27,920 nucleotides of DNA from a virus. Below the pieces are notes generated by a model that was given only the letters and a program-made list of their open reading frames with translations, searched no databases and was not told where the DNA came from. The stretch is from the IMG/VR virus record IMGVR_UViG_3300036398_004368, positions 1 to 27,920 of that record. One strand, written 5' to 3'. Position 1 is the first letter of the stretch; each line of letters opens with the position of its first letter. Positions 4,935 through 26,355 of the stretch are shown here, piece after piece. The position numbers were made by a program, and so were the translations under genes.

Positions 4935-4945
4935 CGAAAGTGATT

Positions 4946-7792: not shown

Positions 7793-8219
7793 ACTTATGC
7801 CGGATGCTTCGAATGAAGCCGCGCTGCGGGAAGCATTTCCCGAGGTGAATCCCGGTGCTCTGCCAGTAGGTGGACGTATTCTCGTGCAATGGCGTGCCGT
7901 TCGCGATAAAGTCACCGCATCGGGAATTGTGTTGCCTGAGGAAACGAAGGAAACCGAGAAGTGGAACACGCAGGTCGCGAAGGTGATCTCGATTGGTCCA
8001 CTCGCTTTCAAAAAGCGTGACACGATGGAGCCATGGCCGGAAGGCAACTGGATCGCCGTCGGAGATTATGTGCGGATGCCCAAATGGGGCGGCGACCGCT
8101 GGGAAGTACCTTTCGAGATCGACGGTGCCAAAGGCAACGCGCTTTTCAGCATTTTTAATGACCACGAAGTGATTGCAAAAGTCACTGGTGATCCCTTGAA
8201 AGTGAAGGCATTCCTATGA
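7782..8219 (+). CDS. GroES-like co-chaperonin (Cpn10 family)
   Basis: The 145 residues show the Cpn10 fold signature. An opening strand GGRILVQWRAV is followed by a mobile-loop-like segment VTASGIVLPEETKETEKWNTQVAKVISIGP, where GIVLP corresponds to the GroEL-contacting tripeptide region. Then come GNWIAVGDYVRMPKWGGDRWEVP, a GALFS-type strand (GNALFSIFNDHEVIAKV) and a C-terminus. Like T4 gp31, it would cap the host GroEL and let it fold the phage capsid protein. It is longer than bacterial GroES (about 95 aa) owing to an N-terminal tail and an insertion near the roof region. The start is taken as TTG 7782, with AAAGGAAG well placed upstream; ATG 7797 is the alternative. Its position between portal and scaffold fits a role in head assembly. 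Confidence 0.85.
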   Translation: MTIELMPDASNEAALREAFPEVNPGALPVGGRILVQWRAVRDKVTASGIVLPEETKETEKWNTQVAKVISIGPLAFKKRDTMEPWPEGNWIAVGDYVRMPKWGGDRWEVPFEIDGAKGNALFSIFNDHEVIAKVTGDPLKVKAFL

Positions 8220-9238
8220 CTAGCACAGAGAAACTCGAATTGCAGGTATCGGAGGCGTCCGACGGGTCCGCGACAGTGGTTATGCCGCAGGGCGAGACTG
8301 CTCCGAATACCGGAGATACTTCCCAGAACCAATCCGGAGACACCCAAGACCGGGACGAAGACGTCGACAACGACGCCGACGACGATTCTGGTGGTTCGGA
8401 CTCCGATGGGGGCGGCTCGGCGGGGTCAGACCCCGAGAGAGATGCGATCCGACAGGCTCGACGCGAGGAGCGATTCCTCAAGAAGAAGCTCCAGAAGGCT
8501 CGGATGAGCGAGAGCAATACGCTGATCAACACTCTGAAGCGTCAAAACGACCAGATGGCCGAGCGTTTGGCAGTTCTTGAAAAGAGGACTGCTGGAGCGG
8601 ATCAGGCGCGGCTGGACAAGGCGATCGAAGATGCTCATGTGCGCCTGCAATACGCCAAGATGAAGATTAAGGAGTCGACCGAAATGGCCGACGGCACTGG
8701 TCTGGCTGAGGCGCAAGAGTCTTGGTACGACGCCCGTCGTCAGGTCGAGGCTTTGGAGGCACTCAAGAAAAAGGCCGTGTCCACGGCGACCAATTCGGCG
8801 GTCCCGAAAGCCCCCGATCCCCGACTCAAGCGTCTGGCGGGCGACTGGATGGCCCGAAATGATTGGTACGACCCCAACGGGAAAGACACGGATAGCCGCG
8901 TCGCGGTCAAAATCGACGAGAGTCTTGTCGAGGAAGGCTGGGACCCGACGAGTGACGAGTACTGGGAGGAGTTGGACAATAGATTGACAAAATATTTGCC
9001 GCACCGTTATAATGGTACCAGTGATGAAAGGTCGTCACAAGCACCTAGAAGGCCAAAGACGGTGGTAACTGGATCTGGACGTGAATCTCAAAGCACCCCG
9101 AAGGGGTCGGAGTTCCGTCTGTCTCCTGAGCGCGTTCGAGCGATCAAGGAAGCGGGTCGGTGGGATAATGTCTCCGAGCGCAACAAGATGATCCGCAAGT
9201 ACGCTGAGTATGACCGTATGAATACGAATAGGAGCTGA
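8216..9238 (+). CDS. Scaffold-like head assembly protein
   Basis: A 340-residue protein placed where tailed phages encode the scaffold, ahead of the major capsid gene. The first 75 residues are highly acidic and low-complexity (DRDEDVDNDADDDSGGSDSDGGG). A long Arg/Lys/Glu/Leu coiled coil follows (from about 80 to 190: ARREERFLKKKLQKARM, INTLKRQNDQMAERLAVLEKR, ARRQVEALEALKKKA). Then comes a small globular part with Trp-rich sequence (GDWMARNDWYDP, DEYWEELDNRLTKYLPH), and finally a basic helical tail with SPERVRAIKEAGRWDN. This acidic-coil-basic-tail layout is typical of scaffolds, whose C-terminal basic helices touch the capsid. It starts through an ATGA overlap with the GroES-like gene. No protease motif is visible. 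Confidence 0.7.
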   Translation: MTSTEKLELQVSEASDGSATVVMPQGETAPNTGDTSQNQSGDTQDRDEDVDNDADDDSGGSDSDGGGSAGSDPERDAIRQARREERFLKKKLQKARMSESNTLINTLKRQNDQMAERLAVLEKRTAGADQARLDKAIEDAHVRLQYAKMKIKESTEMADGTGLAEAQESWYDARRQVEALEALKKKAVSTATNSAVPKAPDPRLKRLAGDWMARNDWYDPNGKDTDSRVAVKIDESLVEEGWDPTSDEYWEELDNRLTKYLPHRYNGTSDERSSQAPRRPKTVVTGSGRESQSTPKGSEFRLSPERVRAIKEAGRWDNVSERNKMIRKYAEYDRMNTNRS

Positions 9239-9240
9239 TT

Positions 9241-9774
9241 ATGAAAGACGACCGCATCAAAAAAGATCTCACCGCTGGTGGCCGGGACTCTCGCGCTACG
9301 CAAGATCGTAGAGCCGCCAGTGATGAATTAGCAAGCCAGCAGGAGCGTCGCAGGATGTTCCGGAACGAGTGGATTCAAGAATCCCTCCCCAAGCCGCCCG
9401 ATATTCCGGGCTATCATCTTACTTGGCTCTCTACCACTAACGGGTACGATCCTATCCACAAACGTCTCCGCATGGGGTACACCCCCGTCGCGATCGAAGA
9501 AGTTCCGGGCTTTGAAAACTACAAAGTGAAAGCCGGAGAACACGCTGGATTCGTGGCATGCAACGAGATGCTTTTGTACAAGCTCCCGAACGAACTCTAT
9601 CAGCAAATCATGGAAGAGCTGCATCACTTCGCTCCCCAGGATGAAGCGGACAAAATCCGCACGCAGATTGAGAACATGGGACCTCGGGATAGTAAAGGTC
9701 GTCCGCTTGGTATGGTTGAAGGTGAGGGGATGAGTCAGCTTGACCAAACCATGCCCGTTCCGGTATTTACCTGA
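9241..9774 (+). CDS. Capsid-region structural protein, unknown
   Basis: A 177-residue protein beginning two bases after the scaffold stop behind an AGGAG site. The N-terminus is charged (RIKKDLTAGGRDSRATQDRRAASDELASQQERRRMFRNEW), then PPDIPGYHLTWLSTTNGYDPIHKRLRMGYTPV. The central part (VPGFENYKVKAGEHAGFVACNEMLLYKLPNELYQQIMEELHH) is well-formed and looks globular. A similar arrangement (scaffold, this type of protein, decoration protein, major capsid) occurs in other short-tailed phages, so a minor capsid or head-completion role is likely. I cannot name a family with confidence. Confidence 0.6.
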   Translation: MKDDRIKKDLTAGGRDSRATQDRRAASDELASQQERRRMFRNEWIQESLPKPPDIPGYHLTWLSTTNGYDPIHKRLRMGYTPVAIEEVPGFENYKVKAGEHAGFVACNEMLLYKLPNELYQQIMEELHHFAPQDEADKIRTQIENMGPRDSKGRPLGMVEGEGMSQLDQTMPVPVFT

Positions 9775-9804
9775 CGGATCTCGAACTGTATTGGAGAAAC
9801 TAAT

Positions 9805-10377
9805 ATGTCTTCTGCAAATGCACCGTTCGGTCTGCGTCCCGCTTTCCACCCCTCCGGTTTGGATCGCGCTCAAGCGCTGGCTGGCGGTATCGTCTCGGGG
9901 TACTCCTCGGACATTCTCAAGGGCCAACCGGTCAAATACGTAACCGGTGGTACTATCGAGCCAGCAGCCGCTGGCGATCGCTTTGCTGGCGCTTTTGCTG
10001 GCGTGGAGTGGACCGACACCACTGGTCGTCGTCGCGTCTCGAACTATTGGCCTGCCAACACGGCATACCAGACTGGTTCGTGTGTGGCCTATTTCTACAA
10101 TGATCCTCTGATCGTGTACGAAATTCAGGCAGACGGCTCTTTGGCGCAGACCTCTATCGGTGATCAAGCCGATCTAAGTGCTACCACCGCAGGTTCTAAC
10201 GTCACTGGTCTGTCGCAGTGCACCATCTCGACCACTTTGGCCGGTGCTGGTGCTAGTGCTCAGATGCGGATCGTTGATCTTGCCCCGTACCCCGACAATG
10301 CTTGGGGCGATGCGTTCACGATTGTTCGCGCAACCATCAACGAGGCGCAGTTCCAAGCGTCCGTTAACGCCATCTAA
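9805..10377 (+). CDS. Capsid decoration/cement-type protein
   Basis: A 190-residue protein immediately upstream of the major capsid gene, with a typical start SSANAPFGLRPAFHPSG and a beta-rich body: GGIVSGYSSDILKGQPVKYV, RFAGAFAGVEWTDTTGRRRVSNYW, CVAYFYNDPLIVYEIQADGSL, then a small linker and MRIVDLAPYPDNAWGDAFTIVRATINEAQF. The opening motif and the order of strands match proteins encoded next to HK97-fold capsid genes that act as head-stabilising or decoration proteins. It has its own GGAG site (9793-9796). The role is inferred from location and composition. Confidence 0.6.
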   Translation: MSSANAPFGLRPAFHPSGLDRAQALAGGIVSGYSSDILKGQPVKYVTGGTIEPAAAGDRFAGAFAGVEWTDTTGRRRVSNYWPANTAYQTGSCVAYFYNDPLIVYEIQADGSLAQTSIGDQADLSATTAGSNVTGLSQCTISTTLAGAGASAQMRIVDLAPYPDNAWGDAFTIVRATINEAQFQASVNAI

Positions 10378-10388
10378 GGGGGTAAATC

Positions 10389-11303
10389 ATGGCTGCTCCG
10401 ATGAGAAGTACAGACTTTCGTTCGATCGTTGAACCGATTCTGAACGAATGTTTTGATGGTGTGTACGAGCAACGCAAGGATGAATGGTCTCGCGTTTTCC
10501 GCGAAGAGAACGGCATCCCGCGTAACTACCACGAAGAACCCGTCCTGTATGGGTTTGGTGCCGCTCCCCAACTGCCTGATGGCACTCCGGTGACTTATCA
10601 GCAGGGCGGTGTGCTGTTCCTCAAGCGCTACGTTTACAACGTGTACGGTCTGGCCTTCGCGCTGACCAAAGTGTTGGTGGAAGACGGCGATCATATTCGT
10701 ATTGGTCAGGTGTACGCCAAGCACTTGGCGCAATCCATGATCGAGACCAAGGAAACGCTGTCGGCCAACGTGCTGAACCGCGCTTTCAACGCCTCGTATC
10801 CTGGCGGCGACGGTGTGCAGCTTAACAGCGCTTCGCACCCGATCGTCAACGGTACTTTCAGTAACCTGCTGAGCACCGCAGCTAACCTGTCGCAGACTTC
10901 GCTTGAGCAAATGCTCATTCAGATCCGTCAGGCTGTGGACAACAACGGCAAGAAGATTCGTCTGGTGCCCCGCCAACTGGTGGTCGCTCCTGGCAACGTC
11001 TTCCAGGCCGAAGTGCTGCTCAAATCGGTGCTGCGTGCTGGTACGGCTAACAACGACATCAACCCCGTCAAGTCTATTGGCTTGCTGGATGAGGGTGCCG
11101 CTGTTCTGTCCCGTCTGACCAACGCCAATGCATGGTGGGTTCAGACCGACGCTCCCGAGGGTATGAAGCTGATGATGCGTCGCGCTATGGAGAAGACCAT
11201 GGAAGGCGATTTCGAAACTGACTCGATGCGCTACAAGGCCACCGAGCGTTACGACGTTGGCTTCACTGATCCTCGTGCGATGTACGGTACTCCCGGCGTC
11301 TAA
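10389..11303 (+). CDS. Major capsid protein (HK97 fold)
   Basis: The 304-residue predicted shell protein. Diagnostic stretches include the N-arm RSIVEPILNECFDGVYEQRKDEW, the E-loop-like segment EEPVLYGFGAAPQLPDG and the spine helix QVYAKHLAQSMIETKETLSANVLNRAFN. The A-domain carries NNGKKIRLVPRQLVVAPG and WWVQTDAPEGMKLMMRRAMEKTMEGDFETDSMRYKATERYDVGFTDPRAMYG. The last block, an acidic-aromatic DxxT/DSMRYKATERY followed by a DPR turn, is characteristic of this capsid group. No pro-domain or maturation protease is apparent, so the scaffold is probably released rather than cleaved from the shell. It is likely the most abundant product here and the client of the phage GroES. Confidence 0.92.
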   Translation: MAAPMRSTDFRSIVEPILNECFDGVYEQRKDEWSRVFREENGIPRNYHEEPVLYGFGAAPQLPDGTPVTYQQGGVLFLKRYVYNVYGLAFALTKVLVEDGDHIRIGQVYAKHLAQSMIETKETLSANVLNRAFNASYPGGDGVQLNSASHPIVNGTFSNLLSTAANLSQTSLEQMLIQIRQAVDNNGKKIRLVPRQLVVAPGNVFQAEVLLKSVLRAGTANNDINPVKSIGLLDEGAAVLSRLTNANAWWVQTDAPEGMKLMMRRAMEKTMEGDFETDSMRYKATERYDVGFTDPRAMYGTPGV

Positions 11304-11310
11304 ACCTAAG

Positions 11311-11327
11311 TGGGGGCTTCGGCCCCT
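11311..11327 (+). terminator. TTCG-loop hairpin after the major capsid gene
   Basis: GGGGC TTCG GCCCC forms a tight GC stem (11313-11317 and 11322-11326) with a stable UUCG tetraloop eight bases past the capsid stop. There is no T-tract, so it is more likely to protect the 3' end or reduce read-through than to terminate fully. It ends just before the next gene's AAGGAG site. Confidence 0.5.
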
Positions 11328-11348
11328 GCTCCATTAAGGAGAAAGACA

Positions 11349-11798
11349 ATGGCACAAACGTACTTTGGTAGCACTGTCCGTGCTGGCTCTGGAACTCTGA
11401 CCGATACCGTTGACGGCGGTTTCACGGTCTTGACCCAGACTACCACGGTCACGACCGCAACCGCAGGAACCGCAACTAGCGCGACTCTGACTCTCCCCGC
11501 TTCGTCCCAGATCATCGACTTTTATGTAGATACGGTTCAGGATGGGGTCGTGGGGGGTGGTACTGCGACCGCGATTGCGATGACTATTGGCACCGCTGCG
11601 GCAGGGACACAATATGTGTCTTCTACCGACATTTTTGCCGGTGGTCGTGCGGCTTTGACTTTTACTGCAGCCCAACTGGCGGCGATGGCGAATATTGGAA
11701 CCAACCAATCCGTTGTCATCACGGTTGATCCCGACGGCACGATCAGCACGACCCAGGCGATTGTTCGTCTGACCGTTGTGTATGCTCAGAAAGTTTAA
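11349..11798 (+). CDS. Beta-rich head/virion protein, unknown
   Basis: A 149-residue protein starting at ATG 11349 behind AAGGAG; the longer in-frame ATG at 11310 would run through the hairpin and is rejected. The composition is dominated by Thr, Ala, Gly and Val in alternating strands (GSGTLTDTVDGGFTVLTQTTTVTT, ATSATLTLPASSQIIDFYVDTVQDG, AIAMTIGTAAAGTQYVSS, QSVVITVDPDGTISTTQAIVRLTVVYAQ). This suggests an all-beta virion surface or head fibre protein, perhaps a second decoration protein given its position just after the capsid gene. No catalytic motif is visible. Confidence 0.65.
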   Translation: MAQTYFGSTVRAGSGTLTDTVDGGFTVLTQTTTVTTATAGTATSATLTLPASSQIIDFYVDTVQDGVVGGGTATAIAMTIGTAAAGTQYVSSTDIFAGGRAALTFTAAQLAAMANIGTNQSVVITVDPDGTISTTQAIVRLTVVYAQKV

Positions 11799-11809
11799 GG
11801 AGGCACATC

Positions 11810-12571
11810 ATGGGCCAATTTAAACCGATGGTGAAGATGCAGACCACTGAACCCAGTGTTGAGCTTAAACTCAAGACTGGTGGGTCCGCAACCCACAAGC
11901 GTGCGCAGAAGGAGGGAGCCCCTGTTCGTAAAATGGATGGTGGGGTTATGGGTGCTCTGGCTGGTCGCAGCCCGATTACGCCGCCTATGGGCAACCCCGC
12001 TGCTGCTCGTGCTATGGCCGCGAAGAAGATGATGCGTCGGCCCCCTGCGATGCCTCCTGCGCCTCCGATGCAGGCTATGCCTCCCATGAAAAAGGGTGGA
12101 GAGGTGGAAACTCCGGCTATGCATAAAGCCGAGATGGGTGCCATCAAGAAGGTGGACAAGAAACTCACGAAGCACGCCGCTTCCCCCGCGTCCAAGGCTC
12201 ACAAAGGCCTTAAGACCGGTGGTGTGATGAAGTCCACTAAGCCTGCCGAGTACAAGACCGGTGGTGTGGTGAATGGTCAAGCCGGGTTCAAGTCTGGTGG
12301 TATCATCAAGACTATGAATCGCAAAACCACGAAAGTGGTTGAAGCTCGACCCGACACCAATTCAGCTCCTACCGGCGATGTGAAACTTGGTAACGCTGGC
12401 GGCTACAAGAAGGGTGGTGCTGCAAAAAAGCATTTTGCTACGGGGGGCGCAGTTAACAACTCCGGCCATGCCGTAGCAATGCCAAAGAAAGCTCCGTCTA
12501 AACCTGTGGCGATTAGCCAGTTATCCGGCACGTTCAAACGTGGCGGCAGAGTTAAAAACGAAGAGTGTTGA
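11810..12571 (+). CDS. Basic low-complexity protein with repeated x-K-x-GG-x motif
   Basis: A 253-residue, Lys/Met/Pro/Gly-rich protein with a strong AAGGAGG site. A short motif, aromatic or Leu, then K/A/x, then GG plus a small or hydrophobic residue, recurs at least eight times: LKTGGSA, MKKGGEV, LKTGGVM, YKTGGVV, FKSGGII, YKKGGAA, FATGGAV, FKRGGRV. Between copies are Met/Pro/Ala-rich tracts (PPAMPPAPPMQAMPPM). No catalytic domain is visible. It is probably disordered, with spaced short linear motifs that may dock onto a repeated partner such as the capsid or DNA. Related QAGG(K/R)V motifs occur in the ADP-ribosyltransferase-like protein, and MKSGGVA occurs in the gene at 12898. The gene is followed by a terminator. 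Confidence 0.7.
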   Translation: MGQFKPMVKMQTTEPSVELKLKTGGSATHKRAQKEGAPVRKMDGGVMGALAGRSPITPPMGNPAAARAMAAKKMMRRPPAMPPAPPMQAMPPMKKGGEVETPAMHKAEMGAIKKVDKKLTKHAASPASKAHKGLKTGGVMKSTKPAEYKTGGVVNGQAGFKSGGIIKTMNRKTTKVVEARPDTNSAPTGDVKLGNAGGYKKGGAAKKHFATGGAVNNSGHAVAMPKKAPSKPVAISQLSGTFKRGGRVKNEEC

Positions 12572-12572
12572 T

Positions 12573-12598
12573 AATGGGGGCTTCGGCCCCCATTTTTC
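12573..12598 (+). terminator. Rho-independent terminator
   Basis: A near-perfect stem ATGGGGGC (12574-12581), loop TTCG, GCCCCCAT (12586-12593) is followed by a T-run (12593-12597) directly after the stop of the GG-motif gene. It probably attenuates capsid-cluster transcripts before the tail genes. The same TTCG-loop stem core appears after the major capsid gene. Confidence 0.85.
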
Positions 12599-12610
12599 TA
12601 GGAGAGTTAA

Positions 12611-12895
12611 ATGTCAACGTTGACGAATGTGTTCTCGGCGCACAGGGATGCAACTGGTGTGATTTACGCTGGTGCTACGAATCTTGCCGGGTATCAGCTA
12701 TTGACCGGTGGCACGGCTGGGGAGATAGTGTTCCGCGATGGCGGTGCATCCGGCACTGTGCTTTTGCGAGTCAACATTTCTGCTTCACCAACAAACCCGT
12801 TTTCTACTTTGATACCGGGCAACGGAATTCGTTTCAGCACCAATATCCACGTTACTCTGCCAGCAGCTGCCGCAGTGACAATTTTCTGCGGTTGA
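12611..12895 (+). CDS. Small beta-rich virion protein
   Basis: A 94-residue protein behind a TAGGAGAG site just past the terminator. The sequence MSTLTNVFSAHRDATGVIYAGATNLAGYQLL...GGTAGEIVFRDGGASGTVLLRVNISA...STLIPGNGIRFSTNIHVTLPAAAAVTIFCG reads as a compact beta-sandwich. It strongly resembles small structural proteins repeatedly found in marine and freshwater phages near capsid genes. The precise location in the virion is unknown. Decoration or adaptor-associated roles are both possible. Confidence 0.65.
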   Translation: MSTLTNVFSAHRDATGVIYAGATNLAGYQLLTGGTAGEIVFRDGGASGTVLLRVNISASPTNPFSTLIPGNGIRFSTNIHVTLPAAAAVTIFCG

Positions 12896-14732: not shown

Positions 14733-16886
14733 ATGCCGAACGTAACAATCACCCAACTACCTGCGGCTGGCCCGATTACCGGAACAGAGTCGGTACCAAT
14801 CGTTCAGAACGGTCAAACGGTTCGTGCTACGACTTCTGCTATCGCTAGCGCTCCGAATCAGCAACAGACTTTCCTCACTCTGGTACAAGAAACGACGTTA
14901 CCTAACAGTCGATATCTGTCTACAAGTACCGGTCTTGGCTTAGTTGATGGTGGCCCGCAAGCGTTTTATAGAATCACGCTTAATGGCGCGGCGGGCTCGT
15001 TGGAGCTTGCCGGCACCGGTATTATTGCTAAGACATCTGCCAGCGCGGTTACAAGCCGCAGTATTGCTGTCACCGGCGCAGGTTTGGCCATCTCCAATGG
15101 CGACGGCGTTGCAGGCAATCCCACGATCTCACTTGCTGGGCTGGCTGCAGCCATGGCGAACGTTGGTGGAACTGGGCTGCTGGCTTTTCAAAACGGGTCA
15201 ACTGCGGGCGGCGTGCTGATTGCTGGAACTGCAGATCAGATCTCTGTGGCCAACGGTAATGGCGCTGGTGGCAACCCAACGATCAGTTTCGCGCTCAATC
15301 CAATTTTGCCGGGAACCGAGGCGGTTACACTGCCGAAAGGGACCACAGCAGAACGTCCTGCTGGTAGTGATGGACAAATTCGTTTCAATACAGATACGAA
15401 TCAATATGAAGGCTACGTCAGCGGGCATTGGTCTAATGCCCTTGGTGCTTCCGGATTTTCCGGATTTTCTGGGTATTCAGGTTTTTCTGGATTAGGTCTT
15501 TCCGGGTACAGTGGTGAATCGGGGTTTTCTGGAATTTCGGGCTTTTCGGGCGAGTCTGGCTTCTCTGGAATTTCCGGCTTTTCTGGTATCTCGGGCTTTT
15601 CGGGCACATCTGGGTTTTCGGGAGTAAGTGGGTTTTCCGGGATTTCCGGCTTTTCTGGTGTCTCAGGTTTCAGTGGCGATTCTGGTTTTTCAGGTGTTTC
15701 CGGATTTTCCGGGTCTGGAATATCCGGATTTTCTGGAATATCTGGATTTTCTGGAATATCTGGATTTTCTGGAACGTCGGGTTTTTCCGGCATATCTGGA
15801 TTCTCAGGAATTTCTGGATTTAGCGGTATTTCCGGATTCTCCGGGGTGTCTGGATTTTCTGGAACGTCAGGTTTTTCCGGGAGTGGTATCTCCGGTTTTT
15901 CTGGAATCTCTGGGTTTAGCGGTATTTCCGGGTTTTCCGGAATCAGTGGTTTTTCTGGCATTTCCGGAATCAGTGGTTTTTCTGGCATTTCCGGTATTTC
16001 TGGGTTCAGCGGGTTTTCCGGAGAATCTGGATTCTCCGGTTCAGGGATAAGTGGCTTCTCTGGATCAGGAATAAGTGGTTTTTCAGGCACTTCTGGCTTT
16101 TCTGGTATTTCAGGCTTTTCAGGCACTTCAGGCTTTTCAGGCACTTCTGGCTTTTCTGGTATTTCAGGCTTTTCTGGCTTTTCTGGTATTTCAGGCTTTT
16201 CTGGTATTTCAGGCTTTTCTGGGATCTCTGGTTTTTCTGGATTTTCTGGATTTTCCGGATCGGGCATCAGCGGCTTTTCAGGCTTTTCAGGCAGATCTGG
16301 GTTCTCAGGCAGTGGCATCAGCGGCTTTTCAGGCTTTTCAGGCTTTTCAGGCTTTTCAGGCAGATCCGGGTTCTCAGGCAGTGGCATCAGCGGGTTCTCA
16401 GGGCGATCCGGCTTCTCTGGATCAGGGATAAGCGGATTTTCTGGCATTTCCGGTTTCTCGGGCCAGTCTGGATTTTCTGGATCAGGCGTCAGTGGTTTTT
16501 CTGGCTCCGGTCTTTCTGGGTTTTCAGGTACATCTGGTTTTTCTGGGTTTAGCGGCACTTCTGGATGGAGCGGATTTTCTGGCATTTCCGGTTTCTCGGG
16601 CCAGTCTGGATTTTCTGGATCAGGCGTCAGTGGTTTTTCTGGCTCCGGTCTTTCTGGGTTTTCAGGCACATCTGGTTTTTCTGGGTTTAGCGGCACTTCT
16701 GGATGGAGCGGATTTTCTGGAGCACCTCCCACAACAGTCACTGTTTCCACCAGCACAGCAACCACCGCGTATTTGACTTTTGTTACAGGCACAACAGGCA
16801 GTCAATCTGTGCTTGTCAATAGCGGCTTGACTTACAATGGAACGACAAACGCCATAACGGGCGGCGTTGCAGGAGGCGCGTTCTAA
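14733..16886 (+). CDS. Tail fibre/appendage with long proline-free collagen-like G-x-S repeat
   Basis: A 717-residue fibre. The N-terminal 240 residues hold a typical attachment head (ITQLPAAGPITGTESVPIVQNGQTVRATTS), beta segments with NGDGVAGNPTIS and NGNGAGGNPTIS repeats, and a trimer-entry motif (AERPAGSDGQIRFNTDTNQYEGYVSGHW) common before fibre shafts. Residues about 240-663 are almost only Gly-Phe-Ser and Gly-Ile/Thr/Val/Glu-Ser triplets, broken by short GSG steps. No proline is present, which is unusual for collagen-like sequence. The C-terminus is a short beta tip ending GGVAGGAF. The serines in every third position are candidate glycosylation sites. The stop overlaps the ATG of the glycosyltransferase gene. 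Confidence 0.85.
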   Translation: MPNVTITQLPAAGPITGTESVPIVQNGQTVRATTSAIASAPNQQQTFLTLVQETTLPNSRYLSTSTGLGLVDGGPQAFYRITLNGAAGSLELAGTGIIAKTSASAVTSRSIAVTGAGLAISNGDGVAGNPTISLAGLAAAMANVGGTGLLAFQNGSTAGGVLIAGTADQISVANGNGAGGNPTISFALNPILPGTEAVTLPKGTTAERPAGSDGQIRFNTDTNQYEGYVSGHWSNALGASGFSGFSGYSGFSGLGLSGYSGESGFSGISGFSGESGFSGISGFSGISGFSGTSGFSGVSGFSGISGFSGVSGFSGDSGFSGVSGFSGSGISGFSGISGFSGISGFSGTSGFSGISGFSGISGFSGISGFSGVSGFSGTSGFSGSGISGFSGISGFSGISGFSGISGFSGISGISGFSGISGISGFSGFSGESGFSGSGISGFSGSGISGFSGTSGFSGISGFSGTSGFSGTSGFSGISGFSGFSGISGFSGISGFSGISGFSGFSGFSGSGISGFSGFSGRSGFSGSGISGFSGFSGFSGFSGRSGFSGSGISGFSGRSGFSGSGISGFSGISGFSGQSGFSGSGVSGFSGSGLSGFSGTSGFSGFSGTSGWSGFSGISGFSGQSGFSGSGVSGFSGSGLSGFSGTSGFSGFSGTSGWSGFSGAPPTTVTVSTSTATTAYLTFVTGTTGSQSVLVNSGLTYNGTTNAITGGVAGGAF
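15450..16722 (+). repeat. Coding repeat tract for G-F-S/G-x-S triplets
   Basis: About 1.27 kb of imperfect 9- and 18-base units of the form GGN TTT TCN GGN ATT TCN. Third-base variation between units shows purifying selection for the protein pattern rather than recent simple slippage, except at the 3' end, where long near-identical blocks occur. The tract also leaves the opposite strand open (a Pro-Glu-Lys pseudo-frame), which is a by-product. Confidence 0.9.
16431..16706 (+). repeat. 138-bp tandem duplication inside the fibre repeat
   Basis: Block 16431-16568 is repeated at 16569-16706, each unit starting AGCGGATTTTCTGGCATTTC, with a partial third start at 16707. I see one mismatch (AGGTACATC versus AGGCACATC). 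The period of 138 bases is 46 codons, so the frame is kept. This points to a recent in-frame expansion of shaft length. Confidence 0.85.
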
Positions 16887-18178
16887 TGAAATATAGCATC
16901 GTCATCCCAACGTACAACAACTGCGACAAGTACCTCAAGCCGTGCCTTGACTCCATTTTTAAGTGGACAGACTTGACCGATGTTGAGTTGGTCATCTCTG
17001 CCAACGGATGCACTGACAATACATTTTGGTACTTGCAATCTCTCAAGAATCAGTTTGATGCAATTGGGTTTTCCAGTCACTTCAAGGTGGTCTGGGACGA
17101 CAAGCCGCTTGGGTATGCAAAAGCCACCAACGAGGGCATCAAGGTTGCGACCGGGCAGCGCATTGTTCTTCTGAACAATGACACGCTGTTCTTAGAGCAA
17201 CCCAAGACTTGCTGGTTGGAGTTGTTTGAAAAGCCGTTCCAGGAAAACCCAAAATGCGGCATATCGTGTGTTATCAAGGGGGCGTCGGAGCCAGCGGGGC
17301 GTGATTTCGCAGTCTTTTTTTGTGTGATGGTTGACCGCAAAGTTTTTGACGCCATTGGTCTTTTGAACGAGGAATACGGGGTTGGTGGTGGTGAGGACAC
17401 CGAGTTCTGTATTGAGGCAGAGAAGGCCGGTTTTGAGGTGCAGGAGGCGCTCTCTAAAACGTGGGATGGTACACAATACACAGGGTGGTTCCCTATTTAC
17501 CATAAGGGCGAAGGCACGATGCACGACCCCGACTTGGTGAAGGGTTGGGACAATATCTTTTTGCGGAACAGCCTGAAATTAGCCAAAAAGTACAATTTCG
17601 AGTGGTATCGGTGGCGACTGTCCAATTATTGGGAGCGAGCGGTTTTTCTAAAAGGCGACCATGTATACCCTCGGGAAGTAACCCGTTACAAGTGGGCCAA
17701 TGAAAATCTAATCGGCAAGAAAGTTCTGGAGATTGGCTGCTCGAACGGTTACGGAACACAATTCTTCCCGCAAGACATTGATTACACGGGTGTGGACTAT
17801 GACCCGATCATTGTTGAGGTCGCAAAAGAACAGGGCTGGGGTGAGCACACCAAGTTCTTCAATGCAGACATAAATCAGTTTCCTCTTGAGCAGTATGATT
17901 CGATAGTGGCGTTCGAAGTTATTGAGCATATTGACAATGGTCTTGAGGTCGTAGAGCGCCTGAAAAAACACTGCAAGCGACTGATGATTACAGTGCCTAT
18001 GAATGAGCCTGTTGGGTTTTGGGGGCCGTACCACAAGTTGCATGGGCTCAATGAGAGCCACTTCCCCGGTTTTGAGTTTAACTACATCAACGAGGCCGGA
18101 GAGATTTTGCCGATAGCTCACCCTATCAGCGACGCAAACCGTTTGAACTTGATGATTTGCCGGTGGACAAATGACTAA
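16886..18178 (+). CDS. GT2 glycosyltransferase fused to SAM-dependent methyltransferase
   Basis: A 430-residue two-domain enzyme. Residues 1-235 are a family-2 glycosyltransferase: SIVIPTYNN, the nucleotide-sugar pocket (VELVISANGCTDNT), the acidic metal motif LLNNDT (95-100) in place of DxD, and a GGGEDTEFCIEAEKAGF motif (ED at 170-171) likely carrying the catalytic base. Residues about 265-430 form a Rossmann methyltransferase with motif I VLEIGCSNGYGT (280-291), acidic motif II YTGVDYD and EVIEHID. The fusion could add and cap a sugar by methylation. Its ATG overlaps the fibre stop (TAATG), so the two are coupled, and the next GT gene overlaps its end. The target may be the Ser-rich fibre or a host glycan; the sequence cannot decide. 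Confidence 0.85.
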   Translation: MKYSIVIPTYNNCDKYLKPCLDSIFKWTDLTDVELVISANGCTDNTFWYLQSLKNQFDAIGFSSHFKVVWDDKPLGYAKATNEGIKVATGQRIVLLNNDTLFLEQPKTCWLELFEKPFQENPKCGISCVIKGASEPAGRDFAVFFCVMVDRKVFDAIGLLNEEYGVGGGEDTEFCIEAEKAGFEVQEALSKTWDGTQYTGWFPIYHKGEGTMHDPDLVKGWDNIFLRNSLKLAKKYNFEWYRWRLSNYWERAVFLKGDHVYPREVTRYKWANENLIGKKVLEIGCSNGYGTQFFPQDIDYTGVDYDPIIVEVAKEQGWGEHTKFFNADINQFPLEQYDSIVAFEVIEHIDNGLEVVERLKKHCKRLMITVPMNEPVGFWGPYHKLHGLNESHFPGFEFNYINEAGEILPIAHPISDANRLNLMICRWTND

Positions 18179-19139
18179 AATTCTTTGTTCAATTTCCACC
18201 AGGGGGCGATATAACAGTACGCTGCCCCTGGCGCTGCAGGCCATCATCATGCAAACTCGGCCTGTTGATAAGCTCGTCATCTTTGACGACAACGACGAGC
18301 CGCAGGATGTGCGATCAGAATTGATCTATTCGCACTTCTTTCAGATTTTGCAAGAGAAGAACATTGCCTGGGAGTGGCTCTTTGCGGCAAAAAAAGGCCA
18401 GCATCACAACCATCAGATTGCAAATCGAATGGGTTTTGATTGGGTTTGGCGTGTAGATGATGACGCTATTCCCGAGCCGAACGTGTTGGAGAATCTTTGC
18501 AAGCACATTGCAAACGATGTCGGCGCTATTGGTGGGTCTGTTCTGACCAAACCATTTGGTCCCAAGCCAATTGAGGCAACCGGACGGATTGACATGATCA
18601 ATTCCGAGCCGAACATTCAGTGGTCTTATATCAACCGAGTGCAAGAGGTAGAGCATTTGCATTGCACGTTCTTGTATCGTGCCGGTGTGTATGACTACAA
18701 CACGGGTTTATCTAGAGTGGCGCACAGGGAAGAGACATTGTTCACATACGGCCTGTTTCAGAAAGGATACAAGGTTCTGGTGGTGCCTGATGCTGTGACA
18801 TGGCATCTGAAAAACCCGCATGGTGGTATCCGCAGTGAGACGAACCAAAAACTATACGAGCAAGACGAAAAAATCTTCCAAAATTTCCTGGCTCATCGCG
18901 ACAAGACGATTGTCGTGCTCAACTGCGGCATGGGCGATCACATTGTGTTCACTCATGTTCTGCCTGAAATCGAAAATCCAGTCATCTTTGGTTGCTATCC
19001 AGAGATAGTGCCTTGCCGGTCGATTGCAGAGGCGCAGTCGCTGTTTGGCAGCATTGACATGTTTAACGTATACGGCAAGATGGATCAGTGGAAGTGGAGG
19101 GGAAATCTTGAGGGGGCGTACAGGAGGATGTACGCATGA
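18171..19139 (+). CDS. GT2-like glycosyltransferase with C-terminal half-GT9 segment
   Basis: A 322-residue protein overlapping the previous gene by eight bases. The N-terminal 240 residues read as a GT2/GT-A domain: ILCSISTRGRYNSTLPLALQAI, KLVIFDDND, the metal motif WRVDDDAIPE (DDD 96-98), VGAIGGSV, AHREETLFTYGLFQKGYKV and a WHLKNPHGG loop. After it, residues 244-322 (DKTIVVLNCGMGDHIVFTHVLPEI, VIFGCYPEIVP) resemble the N-terminal Rossmann half of GT9 heptosyltransferases, whose first strand ends in a G-x-GD loop. The matching C-terminal GT9 half is encoded by the next, overlapping gene. The product probably works with that partner. Confidence 0.75.
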   Translation: MTKILCSISTRGRYNSTLPLALQAIIMQTRPVDKLVIFDDNDEPQDVRSELIYSHFFQILQEKNIAWEWLFAAKKGQHHNHQIANRMGFDWVWRVDDDAIPEPNVLENLCKHIANDVGAIGGSVLTKPFGPKPIEATGRIDMINSEPNIQWSYINRVQEVEHLHCTFLYRAGVYDYNTGLSRVAHREETLFTYGLFQKGYKVLVVPDAVTWHLKNPHGGIRSETNQKLYEQDEKIFQNFLAHRDKTIVVLNCGMGDHIVFTHVLPEIENPVIFGCYPEIVPCRSIAEAQSLFGSIDMFNVYGKMDQWKWRGNLEGAYRRMYA

Positions 19140-19618
19140 TCTTGATTTCTCCGTACTCCAAGGCTCTCATGAGCGGAAAGCAAAATCCCAAGAATTACCC
19201 GTTCTGGGAGCAGTTGATCCCCATGATAGATGATGAGATCATTCAAATCGGAATCACTGGAGAACGGCAGCTCGTTCCCGACTTCAGGAGGGACTTGTCC
19301 GTCCAGCAGTTGCGTGAGTTGATCAGGCAGTGTGATACATGGATTGCGTGCGACAGTTTTTTTCAGCACCTGGGCTGGGATGAGGGAAAAAAGGGAATTG
19401 TTCTTTGGTCGGTGTCTGATCCGTTGATTTATGGGCACCCTGAGAACGTGAACCTTCTCAAGAGCAGGGACTGTCTACATGAGAACCAATTTTTGTGGTG
19501 GGAGTTCGTGGAACATGACCCCAATAAATTTGTTGAGCCAGAGACCGTTTTGCAAGCATTGGATGACTTGTTGCGGTTGAAAAGGTCGAAATCATTTCTA
19601 ATATCTAATCAAAAGTGA
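19136..19618 (+). CDS. GT9 (heptosyltransferase-like) C-terminal half
   Basis: A 160-residue protein starting in an ATGA overlap. It has the features of the nucleotide-sugar-binding C-terminal domain of GT9 enzymes. The first strand is ILISPYSKALMSGKQNPKNYPFW (where GT9 has a Pro-Gly/Ser-xxx-Lys loop). Then come IIQIGITGERQL, the helix RDLSVQQLRELIRQCDTWIACDSFFQHLGW (the GT9 D-T/S-gl-x-H position), GIVLWSVSDPLIYGHPENVNL, and a helical tail. The N-terminal half is missing from this gene but present as a tail on the preceding protein. The pair may therefore rebuild one enzyme from two chains. A diverged stand-alone binding domain is the alternative. Confidence 0.7.
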   Translation: MILISPYSKALMSGKQNPKNYPFWEQLIPMIDDEIIQIGITGERQLVPDFRRDLSVQQLRELIRQCDTWIACDSFFQHLGWDEGKKGIVLWSVSDPLIYGHPENVNLLKSRDCLHENQFLWWEFVEHDPNKFVEPETVLQALDDLLRLKRSKSFLISNQK

Positions 19619-19626
19619 GGTAAATC

Positions 19627-20841
19627 ATGGCCCAGACTGGATACACGCCCCTGCTCATTTACGCATCTGGCACTGCGTCCAACGTGCCTTTACCTGCGAA
19701 TTTGACCAGTAGCGCATCGGGTGCTGAACTTGCGCTAAATTACGCGGATGGCAAGCTGTACTACAAGGACAGCAGTGGCGTGGTTCAACTTCTTGCTAGT
19801 AACGCAACGGCGTCCAATTCAATTTCTTTTGGTACAACGGGGTTAACGCCGAGCACTGCAACGACAGGCCCGGTGACAGTTGCCGGGACGCTTGCCACAA
19901 CTAACGGTGGCACGGGGCTTACATCATTTGCTTCCGGGCAATTGTTTTACGCCTCTTCCTCCAGTGCGGTCGGGCAGTCGGCAAATTTAACATTTGCAAG
20001 TAATATTCTTAACGTCCACGGGATCAATGTTGGCCGTGGCGCTGGTGCGGTGAGTTCCAATACCGCAGTTGGTGCTAGTGCTTTATCGGCCAATGCCGCA
20101 GGGTCACAAAACACGGCAGTTGGCAATGATGCGCTTTTATCCAACACTAGTGGCAACAACAACACCGCAGTTGGCAATGACGCGCTTCAGAGCAACAATG
20201 GGGGTAACGGAAATACTGCATTTGGGAGTCTTGCACTGGCTACCAACAGTTCCGGCGGCACTAACGTTGCAGTCGGCTATGCCGCCCTAAATGTGAGCAC
20301 CACAGGCGACAATAACACTGCAATTGGCGCTAGTGCCGGTTCTGCCATAACTACTGGGGCAAAAAACTGTATTCTCGGCTCTTATACGGGAAATCAAGGC
20401 GGTCTTGATATCCGCACTTCCAGCAACTACATCGTTCTTTCCGATGGCGATGGGAACCCGAGAGCTTACTGGAATGGGGCGAATGCCACATTCAATGGCG
20501 GCTTGACTCTGACGGCGTACTTGAGGACTGCGGTTGCGTCTGTAACAAGTGCTTCTACCGTAACGCCAACTTCTGACGCTTCCAATCAGTACAACGTAAC
20601 GGCGCTGGCCGTGCCAGCCACATTCGCGGCACCTAGTGGAACACCCGTCGACGGGCAGAAACTTGTGCTGCGGATTAAGGACGACGGTACTGCGCGAGCT
20701 TTGACTTGGAATGCGATTTATCGTGTGGTTGGCACGGTTTTACCAACAACCACAGTAGCTACCAAGACGACTTATGTGGGGTGTATTTACAACAGCGCAG
20801 ATACAGTCTGGGACGTGGTTGCTGTTACAACGCAGGCTTAA
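19627..20841 (+). CDS. Tail fibre with YadA-head-like repeats
   Basis: A 404-residue fibre behind a GAGG site. After a beta-rich N-terminus (YTPLLIYASGTASNVPLPANL, GAELALNYADGKLYYKDSSG), residues about 140-240 contain at least six copies of a roughly 14-20-residue unit, N-T/V-A-V/F/I-G-x-x-A-L: NTAVGASAL, NTAVGNDALL, NTAVGNDALQ, NTAFGSLAL, NVAVGYAAL, NTAIGASAG. This is the left-handed beta-roll of trimeric autotransporter adhesin heads. Further on comes a beta-sandwich-like C-terminus (VDGQKLVLRIKDDGTARALTWNAIYRVVG...TTYVGCIYNSADTVWDVVAVTTQA) typical of phage receptor-binding proteins. It is probably a receptor-binding or side fibre. Confidence 0.8.
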   Translation: MAQTGYTPLLIYASGTASNVPLPANLTSSASGAELALNYADGKLYYKDSSGVVQLLASNATASNSISFGTTGLTPSTATTGPVTVAGTLATTNGGTGLTSFASGQLFYASSSSAVGQSANLTFASNILNVHGINVGRGAGAVSSNTAVGASALSANAAGSQNTAVGNDALLSNTSGNNNTAVGNDALQSNNGGNGNTAFGSLALATNSSGGTNVAVGYAALNVSTTGDNNTAIGASAGSAITTGAKNCILGSYTGNQGGLDIRTSSNYIVLSDGDGNPRAYWNGANATFNGGLTLTAYLRTAVASVTSASTVTPTSDASNQYNVTALAVPATFAAPSGTPVDGQKLVLRIKDDGTARALTWNAIYRVVGTVLPTTTVATKTTYVGCIYNSADTVWDVVAVTTQA

Positions 20842-20844
20842 ATC

Positions 20845-21048
20845 ATGATCAAGATCGATTTTCAATTTGAAACACCATACGGCAAGTTTGCCGATGCCCT
20901 CCATCTGCCTGATGACCACGGTTTGAATGAGGAACAGATTGAGGAAATGAAGGCGCAGCGTCGGGACAACTGGATCGCAGTTATTACTGCGCCCCCTGTC
21001 GAAGAAACCCCTGTCGAAGAAACCTCTGTTGAAATTTTGCAGGAGTAA
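20845..21048 (+). CDS. Small acidic protein next to fibre genes, unknown
   Basis: A 67-residue protein three bases after the fibre stop. It starts MIKIDFQFETPYGKFADALHLPDDHGLNEEQIEEMKAQRRDNWIAVITAPP and ends in a short acidic repeat (PVEETPVEETSVEIL). The first part, with the LPDDH turn and QRxDNW helix, is a recognisable small phage family often found beside appendage genes. A fibre assembly chaperone or an appendage subunit is possible, but no function is established from what I can see. The PVEET repeat is encoded by a small direct DNA repeat (CCTGTCGAAGAAAC twice, around 20997-21024). Confidence 0.6.
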   Translation: MIKIDFQFETPYGKFADALHLPDDHGLNEEQIEEMKAQRRDNWIAVITAPPVEETPVEETSVEILQE

Positions 21049-21050
21049 AC

Positions 21051-22916
21051 ATGGCCGCTAGATTTTGGGTCGGTGGTACAAACACTTGGGACGCGACCAC
21101 CACAGCTAACTGGTCTGCAACATCTGGCGGGGCTGGTGGGGCGTCTGTTCCCGGCGCTGCTGACGATGTGACAATCGACACTGCATCCATTATTGTTACT
21201 ACAAATTACAACGTATCTGTAATTTCGGTGACGATTAATGCTTCCGCCGCAACATTGAGTCTTGGCGGCACGTTGACTTGTTCTAGTCCAATCACAGTCA
21301 CCCAAGGAACCTTCACCACTAACAACTTCAACATCACTGCCACACAACTAAGCTCAAACAACAGCAACACACGAACGATTAACCTAGGTAGTTCTACGCT
21401 TACGTTGAGCGGTTTTATCGTCGTCAATTTTACAACGAGTACAGGGCTGACTTTTAACGCGGGAACATCAAGCATTGTTTGTTCTTCTACTGGCCCTTCT
21501 GTCGTTGGGGGCGGGCTAGCTTTTTATGACATTCAATACACATCAACTGCAATTACTAACTCGTCGCTTGAGAATGTCTCCTCCGCTAGAAACATTACGA
21601 TTGCTGGCCGGGCATCAGCGGGCGTAAGTGGGTTTATAATCACGGCAAACACAACTATCAGCGGCACTCTGACGCTCTCCGCAGGAACAGACGCAACATG
21701 CAGGACGTTTGTTCGATCAAGCACCATCGGTACAACCAGAACTCTGACTTGCGCTGCTGTTTCTGCTCCAACAGACATTGACTTCCGTGACATCACCATT
21801 GCTGGTGCTGCTGCTCCTGTGTCTGGTACTCGGTTGGGTGACGCTAAAGGCAACAGTGGGATTACGTTTGGCGCTGGAACCACAAAGTATTGGAACCTTG
21901 CTGCTGGTGGTAATTGGAATGCAACGGGGTGGGCAACGTCTTCTGGTGGCACGCCAGCGGTAAACAACTTTCCTCTTGCACAAGACACTGCGCTATTTGA
22001 AGCAACAGGTTTAAATAGCGGGGCAACAATTACGATCAGCATCGCTTACAATGTTGGCACGATTGACATGAGTGCCCGTACCAGCAACACGATGACGCTG
22101 GCAACGGGTACGACTACACTGCCGATTTACGGCAACTTGATTAACGGTACAGGCACTACGATGACTGGAATCGGAAATCTGGTTTTTACGGGGCCAAGCA
22201 GTCAAACAATTACAAGCGCTGGTAGGACCTTTACTCAATCGATTAACGTAACTAAACCGGGGGGCGTTCTTACGCTGCTAGACGCCTTTTTATCAAACCG
22301 AAGCAACGTAGGCGCGCTAACGATTACTACCGGAACTTTTGACGCTAACAATTACAACGTCACACTAACAGGTAGTGCTTCGGCTGTTAGTTTAACGGCG
22401 GCAAACGTCAGAACAGTTGCTATTGGTTCCGGAACTTGGACCCTGTCTGGACTTACCGCTTGGAACGTGGCAAGCCCTGCAAATTTAACCGTAACAGGCA
22501 CGGGCACAATCAGCCTTATAAGCGCGTCCAACAAAAACTTTGTTGGCGGGGGTATTCAAACTTACCCAACGCTCAACCAAGGCGGTACCGGCGCACTTAG
22601 AGTTTTAGGTAGTAACAAGTTTGCCAACATTACCAACACGGCAATAGGGAGAGTGGAATTTGACCCCGGTCAAACCAATATTTTTACCGCATTCAACCTT
22701 AACGGCGTTTTGGGCAATTTGCTTCAACTTGGGACAAATACAGCAGCCCAAACAACACTACAAAAGTCCAGCGCTTGGCTGATGGGCGCAAACTCCACCG
22801 ATGGCGGCAACAACACGGGGCTGAGTTTTACTGCTGGTGGCGGGATTGACTATTTGTCAGTCAGCTATATCAACGGCACTGTGGTAGCCCCTGGCAACTT
22901 CTTCGCTTTCTTTTGA
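21051..22916 (+). CDS. Large beta-rich tail appendage protein
   Basis: A 621-residue protein directly following the small acidic gene, with its own AGGAG site. It starts MAARFWVGGTNTWDATTTANWSATSGGAGGASVPGAADDVTIDT, and a second related segment appears near residue 282 (TKYWNLAAGGNWNATGWATSSGGTPAVNNFPLAQDTALFEA). The RFWVGG...NW...A.D.V pattern is thus used twice. The rest is Thr/Ser/Asn/Gly-rich short strands (TLTLSGFIVVNF, RTLTCAAVSAPTDIDFRDITIAG), consistent with a right-handed beta-helix shaft. No glycan-lyase catalytic pair is obvious. It is likely a tail spike or fibre used in adsorption. Confidence 0.7.
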   Translation: MAARFWVGGTNTWDATTTANWSATSGGAGGASVPGAADDVTIDTASIIVTTNYNVSVISVTINASAATLSLGGTLTCSSPITVTQGTFTTNNFNITATQLSSNNSNTRTINLGSSTLTLSGFIVVNFTTSTGLTFNAGTSSIVCSSTGPSVVGGGLAFYDIQYTSTAITNSSLENVSSARNITIAGRASAGVSGFIITANTTISGTLTLSAGTDATCRTFVRSSTIGTTRTLTCAAVSAPTDIDFRDITIAGAAAPVSGTRLGDAKGNSGITFGAGTTKYWNLAAGGNWNATGWATSSGGTPAVNNFPLAQDTALFEATGLNSGATITISIAYNVGTIDMSARTSNTMTLATGTTTLPIYGNLINGTGTTMTGIGNLVFTGPSSQTITSAGRTFTQSINVTKPGGVLTLLDAFLSNRSNVGALTITTGTFDANNYNVTLTGSASAVSLTAANVRTVAIGSGTWTLSGLTAWNVASPANLTVTGTGTISLISASNKNFVGGGIQTYPTLNQGGTGALRVLGSNKFANITNTAIGRVEFDPGQTNIFTAFNLNGVLGNLLQLGTNTAAQTTLQKSSAWLMGANSTDGGNNTGLSFTAGGGIDYLSVSYINGTVVAPGNFFAFF

Positions 22917-24475: not shown

Positions 24476-25111
24476 ATGACGACAGCGGCTGTAATGACTT
24501 ACGACAGCCTAGTTCAAGATATCCAACAGTATCTTGAGCGAAATGACGCGGCTACGGTCAGCAAGATTCCGCTGTTCATCATGCTTTGTGAGCAGAAGCT
24601 CGCGTCCGACATCAAGTTTCTGGGTAACCTAATCGTCAACACGAGCACCATGGTTCAAGGGCAACCGGTGATTGACAAACCGGCCCGTTGGCGCAAAACG
24701 GTATCCATGAATGTCACGGTGGGTGGGACCAAGCAACCGGTCTTGCTGCGCAAGTATGAGTATTTGCGTGAGTATTGGCCGGTGGCGACAGACCAGAGTG
24801 TACCCAAATACTACTGCGATTATGACTACACTCACTGGTTGATCGCTCCGACACCGGACAGCGCGTATACGTTCGAAGTGTTATATTACGAGAGGGCGCA
24901 ACCACTCGATTCCAGCAATCAGACCAATTGGTTTACCCAGTATGCGCCGCAGGCCATGCTTTACGGGTCTCTGCTGCAGGCCATGCCGTTTATAAAGAAT
25001 GACGGTAGGATAGCCGTTTGGAAACAGGAATATGCCGAAATCGTCGCAGCTTTGAAGAGCGAAGACCTGACTCGGATCGTTGATCGTCAATCTATGGTGT
25101 TAGACGCATGA
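24476..25111 (+). CDS. Head-tail adaptor (SU10/gp4-like)
   Basis: A 211-residue adaptor. The N-terminal helix block MTYDSLVQDIQQYLERNDAATVSKIPLFIMLCEQKLASDIK is characteristic of a phage adaptor family. It is followed by WRKTVSMNVTVGGTKQPVLLRKYEYLREYW, KYYCDYDYTHWLIAPTPDSAYTFEVLYYERAQPL, NWFTQYAPQAMLYGSLLQAMPFIKNDGRI and the helix VWKQEYAEIVAAL. This is the same order of elements as in the larger adaptor at 13310, without its inserted domain. It forms a ring between portal and nozzle. The start is chosen at ATG 24476 behind AAGGGGG; ATG 24494 is a possible inner start. It overlaps the next gene (ATGA). Confidence 0.8.
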   Translation: MTTAAVMTYDSLVQDIQQYLERNDAATVSKIPLFIMLCEQKLASDIKFLGNLIVNTSTMVQGQPVIDKPARWRKTVSMNVTVGGTKQPVLLRKYEYLREYWPVATDQSVPKYYCDYDYTHWLIAPTPDSAYTFEVLYYERAQPLDSSNQTNWFTQYAPQAMLYGSLLQAMPFIKNDGRIAVWKQEYAEIVAALKSEDLTRIVDRQSMVLDA

Positions 25112-26355
25112 GTTACAACAGCCCATTTACCGGAAACGTCATCCAGCCCACTGACGTTTCGTATCGATCCATCACACTAACTGCGAATACGCAGTTAGAA
25201 TGGCCGATAAACGGTAGCTATACCGGCGACTACGCAGCTCGAATTATGGAGGTCGCGCCATCGGGACCTAACCTTCAGCTCTGGATGCCTCCAGCGAATC
25301 AAGCGTCAGTCGGCCAGGACGCCATGATTCGCAACACTGGTTCCTTCGCGTTCACTGTGTATGATTTTGATGGCCAGAACAGCATTGTAACGGTGGCGGC
25401 TGGTGAGGCTCAGTACATATACATCACCGATAACCCAGACGATTCCGGTACTTGGGGCATTATCGCTTTCGGCATAGGTTCTTCTGGTGCCGATGCGGCT
25501 ACGCTAGCCGGTTATGGTTTGTTGGCAGTAGGCTTGACTCTGAATCAAAGCCATCCAGTGGTGTCGCATTCAAGTAATTACACCGTACTGGACACAGATA
25601 GGGCGAAGTTCCTGACTTGGTTGGGTGGAGCGGGGACATTTACCCTTAGTTCTGCGTCATCCCTTGGGAATAATTGGTTCACTATGGTACGCAACAGCGG
25701 CACCGGGTCTTTAACAATCAATACTAGCGGTTCCGATTTCATTAATGGTTCTCTTAGTATCGTCCTTCAACCGAGTGACAGCGCATTCGTCGTTAATTCC
25801 GGTTCGGCTTTTTTCACTGTAGGCCTTGGTAGAAACACTCAGTTTAACTTCTCGCAGCTCACGAAGTTGGTGTCCAGCGGTACCTACGTTCTCACAAGTG
25901 CGGAAGCGTCGAATACGATTCAGAAATATGTGGGTACCCTCGCCGGGAATGTCACCATCCAAGTACCCCCTACTATTCAAGTATATTACGTCCAAAATGC
26001 CGTCGATCCCACGGTGAACAATTACTCGCTCACTCTCTCGACTGGTGTTGCGGGGAGTGCTTCAGCGACAGTTCCAGCAAACGCACAAACCATTCTGATT
26101 TGTGATTCAGTCAACATCGTGGCTGCAAGCTCAACCATAACGGCCGGTGCCACATCTCTTGCCTTGCTAAACGGTTCGGTGTCGGCTCCATCTCTTTACT
26201 TCGCGCTGGAGACAGGCACGGGTCTGTACAGGCCATCTTCCGGTGCTATGGGTCTGGCTGTGCTGGGCACAAACGTCGTTACCTGGAACACAAGCGGCAT
26301 GACATTACCCGGCGTGGGGACATTTCTAGGGGGCGTTTCGGGGGGCACCTTTTAA
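25108..26355 (+). CDS. Tail fibre/appendage protein
   Basis: A 415-residue beta-rich protein starting in an ATGA overlap with the adaptor. The N-terminal SYNSPFTGNVIQPTDVSYRSITLTANTQLEWP and GTWGIIAFGIGSSGADAATLAGYGLLAVG form a likely attachment and collar region, followed by repeated short strands (GGAGTFTLSSASSLGNNWFTMVRNSGTGSLTINTSG, VLQPSDSAFVVNSGSAFFTVG). The last part has the sequence SAPSLYFALETGTGLYRPSSGAMGLAVLGTNVVTWNTSGM, common before fibre tips in aquatic phages, and ends GGVSGGTF. That tail matches the GGVAGGAF end of the collagen-like fibre. It lies between adaptor and nozzle, so it is probably attached to the tail. Confidence 0.7.
   Translation: MSYNSPFTGNVIQPTDVSYRSITLTANTQLEWPINGSYTGDYAARIMEVAPSGPNLQLWMPPANQASVGQDAMIRNTGSFAFTVYDFDGQNSIVTVAAGEAQYIYITDNPDDSGTWGIIAFGIGSSGADAATLAGYGLLAVGLTLNQSHPVVSHSSNYTVLDTDRAKFLTWLGGAGTFTLSSASSLGNNWFTMVRNSGTGSLTINTSGSDFINGSLSIVLQPSDSAFVVNSGSAFFTVGLGRNTQFNFSQLTKLVSSGTYVLTSAEASNTIQKYVGTLAGNVTIQVPPTIQVYYVQNAVDPTVNNYSLTLSTGVAGSASATVPANAQTILICDSVNIVAASSTITAGATSLALLNGSVSAPSLYFALETGTGLYRPSSGAMGLAVLGTNVVTWNTSGMTLPGVGTFLGGVSGGTF

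Follow-up and report, generated by a model that had tools for sequence, protein, structure and literature searches.

The collagen-like spore proteins BclA of Bacillus and BclA3 of Clostridioides difficile (the BclA3/SgtA system) have glycosylation genes nearby, and some carry a methylated sugar. Serine-rich repeat adhesins of the Fap1 type are encoded with dedicated glycosyltransferases (GTs). GT9 enzymes are best known from synthesis of the lipopolysaccharide (LPS) core. The GT9-fold enzymes TibC and AAH, of the BAHT family, transfer heptose onto serines, not threonines, of adhesins, and are marked by an iron-finger four-cysteine motif and an N-terminal beta-barrel (PMC4358343). Among phages, mycobacteriophage GTs have been proposed to act on the phage’s own structural proteins (Freeman et al. 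2023, PMID 37329881, as related in PMC12619734), with the glycans reported at the C-termini of capsid and tail-tube subunits. GTs encoded near the fibres of pelagimyophages have been read instead as modifiers of the host O-chain (PMC7029224). Phage self-glycosylation and GT9-type serine heptosylation are already known; the fibre variant described below is probably new, and we found no paper on such a fibre-plus-cassette module in the open-licence literature.

The locus lies in a 27,920-nt stretch of viral DNA (“the window”, the whole of IMG/VR record IMGVR_UViG_3300036398_004368, positions 1 to 27,920) that encodes terminase, portal, capsid and adaptor-like proteins, a fibre built of Gly-X-Ser triplets (the “array”), and three sugar- or methyl-transfer proteins (the “cassette”), followed by more fibre-like genes, lysis genes, an SU10-type adaptor and another fibre. 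No tRNA was found in the window, and positions 1-1036 contain no convincing gene. The original prediction placed the fibre-plus-enzyme unit at 14733-18178; its start is correct, and the unit runs on to 19618:

14733..16886, plus strand: Gly-X-Ser (collagen-like) tail fibre, 717 aa, the proposed acceptor (Pfam Collagen, PHROG, translation)
14733..15437, plus strand: N-terminal anchor region of the fibre, common to non-array fibres of related phages
15444..16721, plus strand: Gly-X-Ser array, 133 GxSG motifs
16886..18178, plus strand: GT2 domain fused to a class I methyltransferase, 430 aa (Pfam; relatives)
18171..19139, plus strand: GT-A (GT2-like) glycosyltransferase with a C-terminal putative GT9 N-half, 322 aa (Pfam, model, Foldseek)
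19136..19618, plus strand: C-half of a predicted GT9 (heptosyltransferase-like) fold, 160 aa (model, Foldseek, profile match)

The fibre matches Pfam Collagen (PF01391; E 3e-47, 158.5 bits against a cut-off of 27.2) and the PHROG tail fiber protein family (E 3e-51); with the whole fibre as query, tblastn returned matches to its N-terminal part only. Serine is every third residue of the array. The “hundreds” of regularly spaced serines in the original prediction are an overstatement: there are 146 in the array and 169 in the whole protein. The X position is mostly Phe and Ile, and Pro is absent inside the array; across pure Gly-X-Ser runs near the cassette, X is aromatic or aliphatic in 84% of triplets and Pro in 0.05%, a composition that makes a collagen triple-helix fold uncertain for the array. 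All four Gly codons and all six Ser codons are used, indicating that Gly and Ser are maintained as amino acids and that repetition of the DNA is insufficient to explain them. Both the collagen triple helix and the polyglycine-II bundle expose one or more residues of every triplet to the solvent, so the serines could offer a regular row of acceptors.

The first cassette protein contains a GT2 domain (Glycos_transf_2, E 2e-15; PF00535, 57.8 bits against a cut-off of 23.3) and a class I methyltransferase domain (Methyltransf_12/23/25/11, E 1e-9 to 1e-10; Methyltransf_12 at 42.2 bits, cut-off 30, and Methyltransf_23 at 40.5, cut-off 27). The second also has a GT2 domain (E 1e-5 to 3e-6; PF00535, 25.5 bits), and its structural model (pLDDT 91.4) retrieves GT-A enzymes with Foldseek. 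The third scores 12.8 bits against PF01075 (GT9), under the cut-off of 22, and its model (pLDDT 91.6) points to the C-half of a GT9-like fold: WaaF (E 7e-4), TibC (E 1e-3), a Veillonella GT9 and WaaC are the top Foldseek matches, and a profile match covers WaaC residues 180-293 (E 0.005). Judging by a motif and by gene order, the C-terminal stretch of the second protein may supply the N-half. The two halves were never fused in 191 loci among the matches listed, and since the window has a GGAGG before the second ATG (a feature absent in some relatives), a frameshift joining them is unlikely. By hydropathy, no cassette protein has a membrane segment (highest 19-residue value, 1.55). PADLOC, run for a defence function, returned only a mad2 match in the methyltransferase region, and we set that function aside; NCBIfam matches fell far under their cut-offs, so we do not name the sugar. 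For DNA glycosylation we found no support, though the window lacks replication genes.

The original prediction argued from translational coupling. The junctions are as it described them: the fibre stop and the ATG of the GT2-methyltransferase share a TAATG (16884-16888, a 1-nt overlap), the next GT overlaps by 8 nt (18171-18178) and the GT9 C-half by 4 nt (19136-19139). As evidence for fibre glycosylation they are weak. Nine of the window’s 30 junctions overlap by 1-8 nt, the separate fibre gene at 25108-26355 likewise ends in a TAATG shared with the next gene, and a GGAGG of its own stands 9 nt before the GT2-methyltransferase gene; because such overlaps are common in the window, the fibre/GT overlap says little by itself. 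Among the matches listed, the fibre/GT junction overlaps at 20 loci and has a gap of 25-99 nt at 53, and 34 loci have no array fibre within 100 nt of the GT, while the overlaps within the cassette are nearly invariant (8 nt in 173/184 loci; 4 nt in 178 of the 180 with an identified start). We therefore set aside coupling at the fibre junction as evidence, since it is both non-specific and unconserved.

Comparison across genomes is more informative. With the array defined in advance as Gly-X-Ser, we used the GT2-methyltransferase and the second GT as baits and recovered at least 149 loci in at least 51 clusters at 90% nucleotide identity. Among the matches listed, 40 clusters had at least 2 kb of upstream sequence, and in 39 of these the strand that encodes the enzyme carries an array upstream of it, at a distance between 165 nt and about 4 kb; none of the 40 has an array on the opposite strand. 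The exception (L037) is a 14.8-kb record in which the cassette sits amid replication and lysis genes, with no fibre. When we used capsid and SU10 adaptor genes as neutral baits, only two of 53 loci with adequate flanks, among the matches listed, contained an array, and precisely those two contain the cassette; one of them lies on a contig that is a near-duplicate of the window. The difference between enzyme and neutral baits (Fisher P about 1e-22) is overstated, since the loci are related, the counts are not independent and an enzyme bait favours close relatives. We judge the association to be real and not a product of chance.

We also gathered fibres sharing the window fibre’s N-terminal region irrespective of array or cassette. 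Six of them have an array, and all five with downstream sequence are followed by the cassette or at least its start; these five are close relatives and so represent few independent events. The cassette follows none of the 43 fibres that lack an array and have 1.5 kb or more of sequence after them, and no cassette enzyme occurs anywhere in the 46 whole control records, annotated phage MW202545 included. The co-occurrence that the original prediction asked to see is thus present, and its refuting case, the same GTs widespread without such fibres, did not materialize. One control record (L244) alone has a GT2 above the cut-off. There (positions 4264-12810), a window-type N-terminus precedes collagen-like GPT repeats, and three genes after the fibre stands a methyltransferase-GT2 fusion with the domain order reversed; this single case, which points in the same direction, is possibly a second version of the same idea.

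When we baited with the array itself, the cassette was present, its order and strand unchanged, in most of the loci whose sequence extends far enough. Among the matches listed are 29 array records 25 kb or longer, and 21 of them contain it; the remaining eight or so, together with the cassette without an array in L037, count against fibre modification. The cassette needs the array more than the array needs the cassette, as expected for an enzyme and its substrate. Some array phages, including some without the cassette, encode 2OG-Fe(II) oxygenases near the fibre (Pfam-confirmed at L116:6025-6555 and L147:3784-4386), and four tandem ORFs of about 197 aa that look alike by eye lie on the minus strand at L173:6031-8372. 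The oxygenases might hydroxylate the fibre or, such genes being common in aquatic phages, be unrelated to it.

The module also occurs in a different type of phage. P19250A (KX815270), a cultured phage of Methylophilaceae, has host-specificity protein J and tape-measure genes, as in a J-type siphophage, and its structural genes differ from those of the window. Its genes 0023-0026 encode an array fibre of 1201 aa, a methyltransferase without the GT2 half (63% identical to the window’s), a GT (69%) and a GT9 half (66%), with 8- and 4-nt overlaps identical to those in the window; these genes are annotated as tape-measure and hypothetical proteins. By eye, the two fibre-like genes that follow the window’s cassette (19627-22916) look like genes 0020 and 0021 of P19250A, with N- and C-terminal stretches in common, so sharing may reach beyond the cassette into other parts of the fibre module. 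Overall, array fibres with the cassette have at least seven types of N-terminal anchor.

A search of 84,980 cellular genomes with two stringent patterns, which could miss distant relatives, gave matches in three contigs of metagenome-assembled genomes (MAGs) only. One (L345; JAHEYD010000010.1), binned in a Nitrosotalea MAG, is clearly phage, with a J-like gene, array fibre and cassette, and its placement is probably a binning error; the second (L346), a 4.6-kb cassette contig without an array, is probably phage; the third (L347) has only a short cassette fragment, beside bacterial genes. None was found in plasmids. On these distributions, the best reading is that the cassette is close to phage-only and horizontally mobile. 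Pelagibacter phage HTVC111P (L344:2152-5468) appears to have another kind of fibre-GT coupling: a single-chain GT9-like gene whose ATG overlaps the stop codon of a fibre with an S74 chaperone domain that lacks Gly-X-Ser repeats.

The methyltransferase differs in type among relatives. Among the matches listed, the GT2 half of the first protein is homologous in all 97 distinct relatives, and the C-half falls into four methyltransferase groups that are mutually unlike by BLAST: the window type, an added GT2 with another methyltransferase, an FkbM type and a Methyltransf_24 type. That a methyltransferase is kept though its family is replaced gives the strongest indication that methylation is important for the product.

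Taken together, these data make it likely, as far as gene content and distribution can tell, that the locus is a mobile cassette dedicated to Gly-X-Ser fibres, whose enzymes are predicted to O-glycosylate and methyl-cap the serines of the array. Support comes from the near-obligate co-occurrence, from joint presence or absence behind the same anchor, from the module in a different phage type and from retention of a methyltransferase despite family replacement. This comparative evidence supports the original prediction of a phage that glycosylates and methyl-caps its own fibre, with attachment of the glycan putative; the coupling it invoked says little.

The main rival, which we consider unlikely, is that the enzymes act on the LPS core or O-chain at the host surface and thereby block superinfection or re-adsorption to debris, adjoining the fibre since both concern the same receptor. 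The GT9 fold is typical of heptosyltransferases, and the reading of fibre-region GTs in pelagimyophages as O-chain modifiers (PMC7029224) lends it precedent. A surface modifier, however, would need no Gly-X-Ser array in the fibre. The cassette is also unlike a gtr O-antigen module: neither a flippase nor a membrane-anchored GtrB adjoins it (a GtrB-like GT2 match is weak, E 0.006) and its proteins lack membrane segments. Nor did the 84,980 cellular genomes, searched with the two stringent patterns, yield relatives in a bacterial LPS locus. The data thus favour the fibre as target of the window’s cassette; the pelagimyophage GTs are outside the scope of this conclusion.

Slightly less probable still is that another virion protein is glycosylated, for example the fibres at 19627-22916 or an adaptor, and that the array is merely linked. 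Ser/Thr-rich fibre genes do follow the cassette, with related ones in P19250A, and the Pelagibacter phage’s GT9-like gene overlaps a fibre without Gly-X-Ser repeats, but the association tracks the array, and non-array relatives have other fibres without having the enzymes. That array and cassette are independent passengers of a hypervariable fibre region, with no enzyme-substrate relation, is very improbable: both do lie in that region and the sampled loci are related, yet the link holds across at least seven anchors, a different phage type, methyltransferase replacement and spacings that range from an overlap up to about 4 kb, and cassettes without an array should then be frequent.

If fibre modification is the correct reading, the fibre and enzymes would be co-expressed late in infection, and one GT would add the first sugar to the array’s serines. 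Extension of the glycan, in an order we can only suggest, would fall to the other GT domains, namely the second GT2 and the split enzyme of GT9 fold, whose halves presumably assemble in trans. The methyltransferase domain joined to the first GT2 would methylate a sugar, probably as a cap. The product would be a rod-like fibre closely lined with short O-glycans. For its role, the likeliest candidates would be solubility and stability of an almost proline-free rod of hydrophobic triplets, which we favour, and, second, masking that would shield the fibre. A stronger version seems doubtful to us: that O-methylated glycan on the third-position serine replaces stabilisation by proline or hydroxyproline, through a widespread, mobile cassette in which the GT9-type enzyme is always two proteins. 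On galactosylated triple helices, we found nothing usable in the open-licence literature.

Each known system resembles this one in part. In mycobacteriophages the acceptors are capsid and tail-tube subunits; for the window we propose a fibre of triplet repeats as acceptor, and its cassette also includes a methyltransferase and a GT9 in two parts. Structurally, TibC is one of the closest matches to the GT9 C-half, with WaaF equally good, but in contrast to TibC and AAH the fold is divided between two proteins, and the C-half protein contains a total of three cysteines and lacks an N-terminal barrel. BclA has GPT-type repeats on spores, unlike the almost Pro-free Gly-X-Ser of a phage fibre. By profile, the window’s GT2 half matches GalT1 (PDB 5hea, E 3e-11) at the superfamily level only, and, unlike in Fap1 systems, no accessory secretion system or GtfA/B pair was seen in the window.

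The usual reading of GTs in aquatic phages is that they modify DNA or the host surface; here the likely target is the phage’s own fibre, with an acceptor recognisable in sequence and many natural examples. Because the cultured phage P19250A carries the same gene set, this reading is testable. If it is true, the locus would provide enzymes for making glycosylated collagen-like rods in bacteria, and the decorated triplet-repeat fibre would join the known kinds of virion glycosylation.
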